In this document: one piece after another, positions 46,057 to 53,165 of the stretch
Position numbering within the stretch: the first letter of the stretch is position 1
Layout of the letters: the number at the start of each line of letters is the position of its first letter
DNA from: Tieghemostelium lacteum
Taxonomy: Eukaryota > Evosea > Eumycetozoa > Dictyosteliales > Raperosteliaceae
Direction: 5' to 3'
NCBI GenBank assembly: GCA_001606155.1
Contig: LODT01000013.1
Coordinates: 124,001-188,000, forward strand
DNA: 64,000 bases
The notes under the pieces: generated by a model
Told to the model about the DNA's origin: nothing
Seen by the model: only the letters and a program-made list of their open reading frames with translations
Database searches by the model: none
Translations under genes and position numbers: made by a program

Positions 46057-46532
46057 TTATAATAAATCTTTTCTTGTCAACATACCAACAATTTGATTGA
46101 ATACATTGACTACCACTATATGACGTAAACCAGTTAATCTAAAAAGTCTATAAGCCTCAGTTAGAGAACTGTAGTTTTTAATTGAAACTACAGCAAAGTT
46201 CATGTAGGGTCTTAGATCAATTTGTTTCTCCAAATCAACTTGTGTCAATTGACTGACAATATCCGAGAGTGGTGGTATTTTACTGGCTAATTCAGCTGTA
46301 AATGTCTGATGATCTATTGGCAATTCACCATAGTTGTTCTCCGATAGGAAATCAACTGAGCTCTCTTCATTTGCATTTATAAATATCTTTTTCATTAATA
46401 GTACGCATAACTGATTTCTGAGTATCAACCCACAAAGAATCTTTTCTTCATCTACATGTCTTTCAAATAATTCATTCATTATTGTTTTTCTCTTATTTTG
46501 TGAACTACCTGTACTATCTTTACTACTATTGC

Positions 46533-46593
<61 letters not shown>

Positions 46594-48688
46594 GTTATTA
46601 TTGCTAGAAACACTTGAAGAACTGTCACTCAAGAATGGTGAATTTGGTGGGCTAATGTCATTAATTGACATAGATTTAGAAAGATCAGTTGTACTTGCTT
46701 GCTTATTAGATGTGCTAGAAAACTTATTAGATTGTATTCTAGGTGTAGATACTGTTTGGTTATCGTGTAATTCGGGTATCATAACTACTGGGAATCCATT
46801 ATGTTGTGTATTTGTTAGCATATCAATGACAGCCTTTACACTGACAACTTCAGGTAAGGTTTTAACATCACTAGCCATTGCGTCGGCAACTGTCAACTTT
46901 CTAATATGATGTGCAGGTTGTGATGGTAGATAAGGTATATGTTTAAGTTCAATTAAATGTTCATATACAGATTCATTAAATGCATCACCAGTCCATTTAC
47001 TGAGCATCACTACTAAGATTACTGGTAGTAGATACTGTGTACCTTCTGTCAATTCAACTATAATAACCACCAGAGAGATTGTCATTCTCAAAGATCCACC
47101 CATCATTGCAGCACTACCAATCAATGCATAAATCGATGCATCTACAGTTGTAAACCAAGTACTAATAAGTAAACCAAATAAACGACCCCAAGCAGCACCT
47201 ATAATCATCATTGGAATGAATATACCACTTGCCACATATAAGCCAGAGGTTATAATACAAAGCACCAGATAAAACAATGAAAATGTGAATAACACCCATG
47301 GTGAGAATATATCCACACTTCTGCTATATAAAATCTTTAAACTTGACTCTAAAGTTGTAAATGACAGTGTAGCCAACTGATTATATTGTCCTTCTGGACA
47401 AAAGAATTGCACTGTTGATATAGTCTCTGCAATATCACAAACATCATAATTTGGTGTTTTTATATTGGAAACTGGAGTACAACTGACTGCCAATGCTGGG
47501 AAATAACAAATGGCACTGGTGATTATAACAGCTAATATAACCTCTAAGAACTTATAGAGTTTATTCTGACCAAGGAACTTCTTTCTTAAATAGTTTATAC
47601 GTATGTTCAAGTGAACAAAAATTGCACCAATTAAACCACCTACTATTCCCATTATACAAAATGGAATGAGTTCCAAGTAGGTGTAGAGATAGGATTTAGA
47701 GACACCAAACGTCAATACACCATAATCGTGAATCTGTACTTCAAAACCTTGTAAAAACAAATTAGCAATCATAGTTGCTACCAGACAACTAAAGAAAGTT
47801 CTCCAGGTCAATTGACGTGACCAAAACGAAGAACCCTCTTCAAGAGCAAACAAAACACCACCAATAGGTGCACCAAAAGCTGCAGCTATACCAGCAGCTG
47901 CACCGCAACTTATAAAATCTCTCTTGTCAGAGTCATTTTGAAATACCCACATTTTTCTAATATGAATACCCAATGTTTTGGATTTGAACTGACTCACTGA
48001 CGAACCTACTATAGAACCTATGTGAAACATTGGTCCCTCAGGTCCTAAGACCAAACCACTGCTGAATGAAAATATCAAACTACTAATCTTTCCAACTAAT
48101 GTCTTTAGATTGAATGCTTTTTGAATTCTAATACCATTAAGGTAACCTTTTACTTCGGGTAGACCTGAGCTACTAACTAGAGGTCCAAACACAATAACAA
48201 ATATACACGATATCATACCATACAATAAATTAAATGATAAATATATAAGAAATGGTATAATTTTGTTTTTACTGTAATCTAAAATTTCAAGTAAATTATA
48301 TATAAAGATTATTATTTGAACCAATATTCGATTTGGAATTTTAATACATACATTTCTCAACGGCATTGAACTTAAGATCTTGTAGTTGATCAACAGAAGC
48401 TTTTAAACAGTAAACTATAATACCAACAATGATACCAATAAGTGAACATATAGTCCATTTACCAAATGTCTTTAACATTTTATAAAATCTATGACGTTCT
48501 TTGGTGTATTTTCTTAGGATTATATTATCAATCTCTGAGAAATCCAATGATTCAACACTCTGCATAGATGCCTTCTCTGCAAAGGACAACACCTTGTGAT
48601 GTCTTCTATGTGTCAATGTTTGTTGTGCTTTAGGTACACCATCATTTTCATCCAGATCCAATAACAAATAGTCCTTGGATTGTTTCAT
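46057..48688 (-). CDS. CLC chloride/proton exchanger, CLC-6/7 type
   Basis: Exons 48688-48352 and 48278-46057 give 852 residues. About ten or more membrane helices follow a cytosolic N-terminus of about 75 residues. Chloride-pathway motifs are clear: [13 protein letters not shown] (the GSGIPE site), [10 protein letters not shown] with the gating Glu, and [13 protein letters not shown]. The LEEGSSFW Glu corresponds to the proton Glu of CLC-7, so a 2Cl-/H+ exchanger of an acidic compartment is more likely than a channel. Two CBS domains make up the C-terminus ([42 protein letters not shown]). They are separated by a Ser/Asn region with a run of over 20 Asn encoded by AAT/AAC (about 46529-46598), where strain length differences are likely. 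It is transcribed away from the clamp gene across a spacer of 471 bases. Confidence 0.92.
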
Positions 48689-49159: not shown

Positions 49160-50271
49160 ATGACATTTAAAGCTATTTGGTAATTATTGTTGTAAAAAAT
49201 AATAGTAAACATACTAATTAGAAAAAAGTAATTCAAATAATAGCAAAATACTTTCAAATATATTTGTGTTGTTGAATGACTTTGTTGAGTATATAACACT
49301 TGATGTAACTGAGAAATGCTTACATTTGTACTCTTTTGATTCATGCCAAGTATTATTGGTTGATATCATTTTTAACAAATCTTTTTTTACAGAGTTTATA
49401 ATGTTTGTTTGAATGTAATTTAAAGTGTGAATTATATTTTAAAACTAATATTTTATCTTAGAGATACACCTATATTTGTTTCATTAAAAATTGAACATCT
49501 TTATAAAAGTTTTAAAAGTAATGGTGGTAATTTAGATAGTTTAGTTTTGAATTATGTTAATGACTATTTGCACATTGTAGGTACCTAATCTTTAATTTTG
49601 ATTTAAAGATATAGTCTAATGATAATTCAAAGACATTTTATAAAATGAATGGAAGTATATCAAATTATAAAATACCAGAGATTTATATTGAAACTAGAGA
49701 GAAAATAGTTTCCCCAAACTTTCAATATCCCTGTGAACTATTATTACATTCAAACCACTTGAAAGATGTTTGTATTGTTATAACTACTTATCCTTCTTTT
49801 AACTAACTAAACATCATAGATATGCAGTGAATTAAAATCATTTAAAAATTTAAAATTAAATATTAAAATTCAATTTGAAACCTTGACATTTGAAGTTAGT
49901 GATCAAATTATTAAAGCTAGTATTACTTTGGAAAATAATGTAAGATATTAGTTTTTATTGTGTTTACTAAATATATTTTAACCTATTCTACATTAAATAG
50001 GTAACTAAAGATTTCCAAATTCTAAATAAAGTAGAATTTGATATTGAGTTTTCCAATAGCTATTTTCTGAAAATGGATAAGGTTATAAAGAAGATGGGTG
50101 TTAATGAATGTCTTGTTCAATTAGGTCCCAATTTACCACTTGGCATTATTTTGTATTTATATTGATATTATTACTATTGAATGTTTAGAAGATACTAACT
50201 ATTTACCTATGTTTAGTGAAATTGATAACTGTGGATTTCAATTCTTTCTTGCACCTATGGTATCTGACTAA
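49160..50271 (+). CDS. Highly diverged PCNA-like sliding clamp, seven exons
   Basis: Exons 49160-49179, 49229-49402, 49462-49576, 49615-49767, 49820-49939, 50001-50152 and 50217-50271. All six introns are short (38-64 bases) with GT/AG ends, and the spliced frame has no stop. It gives 262 residues, against 261 in human PCNA. It aligns from end to end: SKILSNIFVLLNDFVEYITL with PCNA [36 protein letters not shown] with LQSMDSSHVSLVQLTL; VSLKIEHLYKSFKSNGGN with MGVNLTSMSKILKCAGNE; LLLHSNHLKDICSEL with MPSGEFARICRDL; PLGIIFEIDNCGFQFFLAP with [20 protein letters not shown]. Identity is low but fold length and landmarks agree. By this alignment the residue matching ubiquitinated Lys164 is Thr. PCNA rings tether polymerases and repair factors to DNA; this copy is too diverged to be assumed the replicative clamp. 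The last donor could instead join a downstream exon (50436-50549), replacing the final VSD with a tail of about 37 residues. No transcript evidence. Confidence 0.72.
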
Positions 50272-50692: not shown

Positions 50693-51197
50693 ATGGTCAC
50701 ATTTTGTGTATGTTTAGATGGTTCTGAAAAAGCACATAAAGCATTTTTAAGAGCAGTGTCATTATATAAAGATGGTGACACATTGTTAATGTTAGTTGTT
50801 GTAGATTTAGTACATTATATGATGTCCAATCCTAAAGCATCAGAATTGTTATCTATAACCAACATCAAAGAGGAAATGATTGAAAATGGAAAATCATTAA
50901 TAGAGAAATACGAAAATCTATCAAAAGAATATTTTATTACCAAATATGAGAGTATTCATGCAGAGGGTACTCCAAAAGAGGTTATAGTTGAAACTGTTCA
51001 GAAAAAATATGTAGATGTATTACTTTTAGGTACTGTTGGTTTATTGAACAAGGAGCTGTAAGTATTCAAACATACACACAAAAAACCATCAAAATTAATG
51101 ACTAATTTATCTAATTTATTAATATAGTATTTCAATGGGATCAACAGCTCAATATTGTGTAAGACATTGTGAATGTGATGTTTTACTATGTAAATAA
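50693..51197 (+). CDS. Universal stress protein (UspA family)
   Basis: Exons 50693-51057 and 51128-51197 give 144 residues, the usual length for a single UspA domain. The N-terminal strand CVCLDGSEKAHKAF and the late motif GTVG-(9 residues)-GS (GTVGLLNKELISMGST) match the ATP-binding UspA type, and the C-terminal strand ends CDVLLCK like the usual CPVLLV. The short second exon supplies the essential end of the nucleotide-binding loop, so the gene is complete only with the intron removed. These proteins are small cytosolic dimers tied to stress survival; the specific role is not known. Confidence 0.9.
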
Positions 51198-52087: not shown

Positions 52088-53165
52088 TTATTTAGTATTA
52101 AAATGATTGATCATATCTTGGAAATCATTTGGTGATAGTTTATAGTTTTTATTACAGTAGATGCAGTTTAGGGTATCGTGGTTCTGTTCTTTCATTGAGA
52201 GAATCTCTTCTAGACCCAATGTCTGTAATTTAGTTTTAAATGTATTCAAACTACATCTACAAAAGAAATCTACAAATGTGCAATCAATTGATTTAATTGG
52301 GTCATAGTCAGGATGTTGGTCAGCTGACGAATAGATTCTCTCTAGTATCTCTGATAGTGTGAGTTTTTCAACATTTAAAAGATAGTCAATTGACAAATTC
52401 TTTTTTTCAAATGTCTCTTTAATGTGATTGATGAGTGATTGTGCATTGGATGATGGTAAACTTTGAATTAACACACCACCATTAAATTCAGTATCACCAT
52501 TTTGGAAATTAACTAGATTCTCCAATGAGATAAATGTAGGAATTTGTTCGGATTTATCAAAAAAAGTTTGAAAATCCTCCTGAATATTTACATCTGCGCT
52601 ACCACTAACAAAACTACTTATCGGTTTTTGGTTACCATATAGAATCTTACTGAAATTGAAAACTGATTTTCTCTCTACTGATACATCATCATTCTCTGGT
52701 AGATTTGAATTTATTGAATATCCTCTAACTTCACCTACATGTACTGCCTCTGCATATATATTCTATAACCATTCTTTTTGTATTAGTAGTGTATATCTTC
52801 CTATTGAATAGTATAATATTGCATACATTTGGATTTTTATTTGAAATAATTTGTGCTGCAATTCTTTCTTGATCAGTTAGAAATGAAGCACACATTGATA
52901 CACCTGCCATTAACTTTCCAAGTGATACTGAATCAACTAATGATAAATTATGTTTATTTTTAGCTACATTAGCAGCTTTTGTTAGATTGATTATTGAGAA
53001 TCTAAAATTTTTATTATAACCTGTAACTACTTGATCTCTAGTTCTTTTATATTCCTCTAATGATTTAGATTTTGGAGTTGAAGATGTTTCTTTTCCATTG
53101 CTAGTACAAAAATTTCTAAAATATTGGTTGGTTGCATATTTAAATAATTTTGCATAATGAATCAT
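52088..53165 (-). CDS. Hsp33-type redox chaperone, probably mitochondrial
   Basis: Exons 53165-52827 and 52762-52088 give 337 residues, both in phase 0. The basic, aromatic N-terminus (MIHYAKLFKYATNQYFRNF) resembles a mitochondrial presequence. The body carries Hsp33 landmarks: GKLMAGVSMCASFLTDQERIA, HVGEVRGYS (bacterial GEARGY), and the C-terminal zinc-binding cysteines FFCRCS ... CIYC, the CxC and CxxC pair that releases zinc and unfolds on oxidation to activate the chaperone. Hsp33 is mainly bacterial but occurs in some protists and algae. Its N-terminus is divergent from sdhC across 244 bases, another mitochondrial gene, and the two may share a promoter region. Confidence 0.9.

Follow-up and report, generated by a model that had tools for sequence, protein, structure and literature searches.

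In the window analysed here, a stretch of 64 kb from the genome of Tieghemostelium lacteum, we identified a gene of seven small exons whose product is a strongly diverged sliding clamp of the PCNA type. Judged by its sequence, this gene is probably an intact and functional one, encoding a specialised, non-replicative clamp that would work beside, and not instead of, the canonical PCNA of the same genome. The gene and its exons, in positions of the window, are as follows.

49160..50271, + strand: whole gene, diverged PCNA-type sliding clamp of 256 amino acids; PCNA_N and PCNA_C over cut-off, TIGR00590 under cut-off
49160..49179, + strand: exon 1, ATG, encoding MTFKAI plus 2 nt; GT donor at 49180; outside the best local alignment
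49229..49402, + strand: exon 2, helix A1 to the middle of the PCNA N domain; unspliced PCNA_N match in the genome-wide scan, 3′ border recovered by spliced profile alignment
49462..49576, + strand: exon 3, helix B1 region of the N domain; both borders recovered by spliced profile alignment
49633..49767, + strand: exon 4, interface strand, inter-domain connector and start of the C domain (helix A2); both borders recovered by spliced profile alignment
49820..49939, + strand: exon 5, C domain, with F167 at the place of Lys164 (residue comparison); both borders recovered by spliced profile alignment
50001..50152, + strand: exon 6, helix B2 and the following strands, including P234 (residue comparison); both borders recovered by spliced profile alignment
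50217..50271, + strand: exon 7, C-terminal strand FFLAP and stop codon; 5′ border from spliced profile alignment

The reading frame opens with the ATG at 49160 and closes with the last base of the stop codon at 50271. It is interrupted by six GT..AG introns of 49–64 nt with a G+C fraction of 0.16–0.25, and the spliced product has 256 residues and no internal stop. To establish the borders, we used a spliced profile alignment in which any GT..AG intron of 40–130 nt was permitted and no border was supplied; the profile was scored on five other clamps, but its columns came from an alignment that included the protein of the window. Introns 2–6 were recovered to the base, with a score of 74.8. An earlier note on this DNA had proposed seven exons with GT/AG introns between the same start and end, which agrees with our model, and had counted 262 residues, which the best splice model corrects to 256. 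The best local alignment of the spliced profile search does not reach exon 1 (20 nt) or intron 1 (49180–49228), which makes exon 1 the least certain of the seven. It is supported by its splice signals, by the fact that no in-frame ATG occurs after the preceding stop and before exon 2, and by the likeness of MTFKA to the PCNA N-terminus MFEA; an alternative acceptor of intron 1, an AG whose last base is 49243, would preserve the frame as well.

The same spliced alignment was applied to 302 of 314 control stretches of 1200 nt from both strands of the window, the 12 that overlap the clamp gene being excluded. These controls, which are not independent since they overlap one another (step 400), gave a mean score of 23.0, a standard deviation of 2.8 and a maximum of 35.3. 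The spliced frame contains no stop, versus a mean of 23.2 and a minimum of 10 in 2000 base shuffles, and its coding score of 35.1 exceeds that of every one of 1000 shuffles, which reach at most 14.4. Individual exons differ in their coding signal, exon 2 by itself scoring −3.0 in frame. The spliced-alignment controls, together with the open frame and the coding score measured against shuffles, rule out a chance assembly of exons. This confirms that the gene described in the earlier note is real as sequence. Since PCNA itself served as the guide when the exon borders were first set by eye, the Pfam scores obtained with the spliced protein depend in part on that choice, an objection to which the spliced profile alignment and an unspliced scan with PCNA_N are not exposed in the same way. 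Over the whole unspliced genome, PCNA_N matched two places at E ≤ 10, one in the canonical pcna and one in exon 2 of the clamp gene, the second with 18.7 bits (cut-off 20.3) and E = 0.019, while PCNA_C matched the canonical pcna only.

Upstream of the clamp gene, an ORF on the − strand (46057–48393) encodes a CLC chloride channel that has a CBS domain and a long run of asparagines; downstream, on the + strand, lies a universal stress protein-like ORF (50693–51061). Two adjacent ORFs on the − strand (52088–53165) match both ends of Hsp33, a redox chaperone best known from bacteria (profile positions 8–69 and 160–272), and are perhaps one intron-split gene.

The two-domain sequence of PCNA is present almost end to end in the spliced protein. 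With the splice model initially fitted by eye to PCNA, Pfam gave 33.2 bits for PCNA_N (cut-off 20.3) and 25.4 bits for PCNA_C, which narrowly passes its cut-off of 23. NCBI's PCNA model TIGR00590, which we take to represent eukaryotic PCNA, matched residues 10–256 with E = 1.7e-21 and 76.8 bits, short of the equivalog cut-off of 99.1; the best archaeal-type NCBI model reached 58.2 bits. An hhalign comparison with three eukaryotic PCNAs covered residues 14–256 over 237 columns with a probability of 92, and the best 60 of 95 matches among PDB sequences were all PCNAs or archaeal clamps. The models of Rad1, Rad9 and Hus1 (PF02144, PF04139, PF04005) gave no match at E ≤ 10, in a search whose HMMER filters discard the majority of matches with E higher than roughly 0.1. 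The profile comparison with PCNA, Rad1, Hus1 and Rad9 that the earlier note had proposed thus came out for PCNA, in Pfam, TIGR00590 and hhalign alike, with none of the other three found by Pfam. Both Pfam domains, the TIGR00590 match and an identity of 22–23% to the canonical copy bear out the proposed assignment to a highly diverged clamp of the PCNA type.

A separate canonical pcna, for which the same note had suggested a search, was found by the genome scans with PCNA_N and PCNA_C on another contig (C30). Its product keeps K164 and shows 54–55% identity with the chains of human and Arabidopsis, and the gene has one intron as read here, versus six in the diverged gene. The 9-1-1 families match on contigs C18, C23 and C9, away from the clamp gene, with one locus each for Hus1, Rad1 and Rad9. 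With a canonical PCNA and one locus for each 9-1-1 family, the diverged gene is therefore an extra clamp gene. That it might supply a missing 9-1-1 subunit was considered and rejected, all three families lying at other loci and none of their profiles matching here. A genome search with the diverged protein revealed no second copy, 6 of the 7 matches being listed and all of these lying within its own locus. Four Rep_fac_C matches, three of them over cut-off, gave no hint of a further, dedicated loader, in a type of scan that intron-split genes can escape. The canonical pcna (locus L002) carries an E2F-type site, TTTCCCGC, in its intron (1894), and CCCGCGC in its 600 nt upstream (1384). The E2F-type consensus occurs nowhere in the 64 kb of the window, nor in any of the five Hus1, Rad1, Rad9 and two Rep_fac_C loci, each taken 1.5 kb beyond the match; since these five loci lack it as well, its absence near the diverged clamp has little meaning.

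We then compared the diverged clamp residue by residue with other clamps, among them reference chains that we take to be human, Arabidopsis and yeast PCNA. It keeps 13 of the 26 columns that are invariant in five reference clamps (in human numbering D41, V45, L47, F57, K77, D86, F103, K217, P234, G245, L251, A252 and P253) and 23 of the 58 that are invariant in four eukaryotic PCNAs, versus identity with human PCNA at 31 of 190 variable columns. Such a contrast is partly what would be expected of any descendant of PCNA, even one free of constraint, and is by itself no proof of constraint. The claim that Lys164 is not conserved stands: F167 occupies that column of the alignment, where the host canonical PCNA has K. 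For the DNA side, the partner (PIP) pocket and the subunit interface, positions were chosen according to the known structure of PCNA, and the diverged clamp is identical to human at 3 of 13, 7 of 17 and 6 of 26 of them, compared with 9 of 13, 12 of 17 and 16 of 26 for the canonical copy. With counts this low, it is uncertain whether the protein binds DNA, binds partners or closes a ring. On the DNA side, K13, K14, R146, R149 and R210 are lost and K77, K80 and K217 kept; K20 is lost in the diverged clamp and in the host canonical PCNA alike. Extra lysines occur near helix B2, and the four inner helices hold 10 K/R, versus 8–9 in five reference clamps, in segments of 60 residues versus 56 in the host PCNA. 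The PIP-like pocket keeps V48, L50, P234 and L250-A251-P252, the L-A-P end of the chain being thus retained, and is altered where human M40, H44 and I128 are replaced by F, Q and S. The chosen positions were in part compared with published ones: the available part of one source gives 40–44, 117–135, 230–235 and 251–253 as the partner pocket of PCNA (PMC6881253), and that of another gives 13, 14, 77 and 80 as its inner-side lysines (PMC7225939).

That the chain still ends in L-A-P and keeps P234 and a number of core positions, and has lost Lys164 together with much of the DNA side, most likely indicates a clamp with other partners and another control than PCNA. The protein would fold as a clamp subunit and encircle DNA in a closed ring, made of itself or shared with canonical PCNA, and a PIP-like pocket of changed specificity would hold its partners. 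No ubiquitin could be attached at the position of Lys164, whose loss would place the clamp outside Rad6-Rad18 switching. Given the altered pocket, the missing Lys164 and the changed DNA-facing residues, a clamp specialised for repair, recombination or development appears likelier than a general replicative one, and replication itself is most likely served by the canonical gene.

The main rival to this explanation is that the protein serves as a subunit of a mixed ring, joining canonical PCNA and modulating or poisoning some of its partners, in the manner of the specialised subunits found in heterotrimeric PCNAs of archaea. The S-x-Y pattern of human S112-Y114 is retained on one interface strand, and on the other one, strand D2, both glycines (G176 and G178) are substituted, so that the two edges of the clamp differ, as a mixed ring might have it; however, with so few interface positions shared with human PCNA, both edges are diverged, and we hold this arrangement to be possible but rather doubtful. 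A decaying pseudogene of pcna seems very unlikely. Its very fast divergence, its small AT-rich exons and the negative coding score of exon 2 would suit decay, and the preference for family-invariant residues is, as noted, partly expected without constraint; against this stand the frame, free of stops where shuffles hold about 23, and the exact recovery of introns 2–6 with proper splice signals. A gene free of constraint should have acquired stops by the time its identity to the canonical copy had fallen to 22–23%, and the open frame therefore counts for function. It is extremely improbable that the gene encodes Rad1, Rad9 or Hus1 itself: these proteins share the fold family and are all diverged clamps, but their models gave no match down to the limits of the search described above, and the three families match elsewhere in the genome.

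A gene acquired from an archaeon or a virus, instead of one duplicated from the host gene, is what a tree of six rows would suggest, in which the diverged clamp groups with an archaeal PCNA outside the four eukaryotic ones (support 98/99), and in which sisterhood with the host PCNA (AU p = 0.009) and also with yeast PCNA (p = 0.025) is rejected; an archaeal source has likewise been proposed for the second PCNA of Trichomonas, according to the available part of a survey (PMC8357120). We enlarged the tree to 14 rows with archaeal and archaeal-virus sequences, 33 loci yielding 18 usable ATG-started ORFs of 235–300 aa, 8 of them kept at less than 70% identity. The support for the placement then fell to 41/84, and the tests accepted both a eukaryotic clade (p = 0.41) and sisterhood with the host PCNA (p = 0.23). 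A false join is likely, since the branch of the diverged clamp is the longest of the 14 rows and its letter make-up was flagged as differing from that of the other rows. A further tree of 8 rows, to which Hus1 and one exon's worth of Rad1 had been added, joined two long branches and was set aside. The higher score with TIGR00590 than with any archaeal-type model also speaks against acquisition. No relative of the diverged clamp was found in phages by tblastn, in viral contigs (IMG/VR) with peptide patterns from the diverged protein and from the canonical-PCNA alignment, in genome contigs with patterns from the latter alignment, or in PHROGs; the pattern searches are limited in reach, because the canonical-PCNA alignment found no clamp either, though archaeal genomes hold clamps. 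Altogether, we consider acquisition unlikely. As a separate observation, PCNA_C matched in 111 of the 115 archaeal genomes searched, 22 of these 111 with two matches, so that a pair of PCNA genes seems frequent in parts of their phylum.

Set against known clamps, the protein resembles eukaryotic replicative PCNA in the length and order of its two domains, in P234, the L-A-P motif, K77, K80 and K217 and in part of the PIP pocket, and departs from it by an identity of 22–25%, a score below the equivalog cut-off and the loss of Lys164, K13, K14 and R149. It is 19–27% identical, over the same span, to archaeal or archaeal-virus rows, a group that includes heterotrimeric types, and the one archaeal row compared has no Lys164 equivalent; unlike archaeal PCNA, it scores higher with NCBI's PCNA model than with archaeal-type models. 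The 9-1-1 clamp offers a likeness in manner of working only, as a non-replicative clamp beside PCNA, but no profile match, its three families lying at other loci. The extra PCNAs of protists are likened here by description, not by sequence: the available part of the survey gives two PCNAs per genome in Trichomonas and Acanthamoeba, three to four in some ciliates and one in most surveyed eukaryotes (PMC8357120). For Dictyostelium discoideum, the same part mentions one PCNA, obtained by BLAST with human PCNA (PMC8357120), a search that could overlook a copy as diverged as the present gene; one pcna also appears among the RblA-repressed genes of this species in the available part of another study (PMC3386910). 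Among the matches listed from the open-licence literature, no title or abstract opening reported a diverged second PCNA in a dictyostelid. A second PCNA in a protist is thus already known, and the diverged copy described here, devoid of Lys164, is an addition to that kind.

A bolder version of our reading would make this gene a fifth lineage of eukaryotic sliding clamps, old or horizontally acquired, with its own ring and partners, outside ubiquitin control of the Rad18 type, which dictyostelids in general would have retained for repair, development or sex (macrocysts); we regard it as fairly improbable. CRISPR knock-in is reported for several dictyostelid species in the available part of a recent source (PMC13046832). 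With a normal PCNA, the three 9-1-1 families and an intact clamp lacking Lys164 in one genome, this organism offers a natural test of which surfaces of PCNA serve replication and which can be re-tuned.
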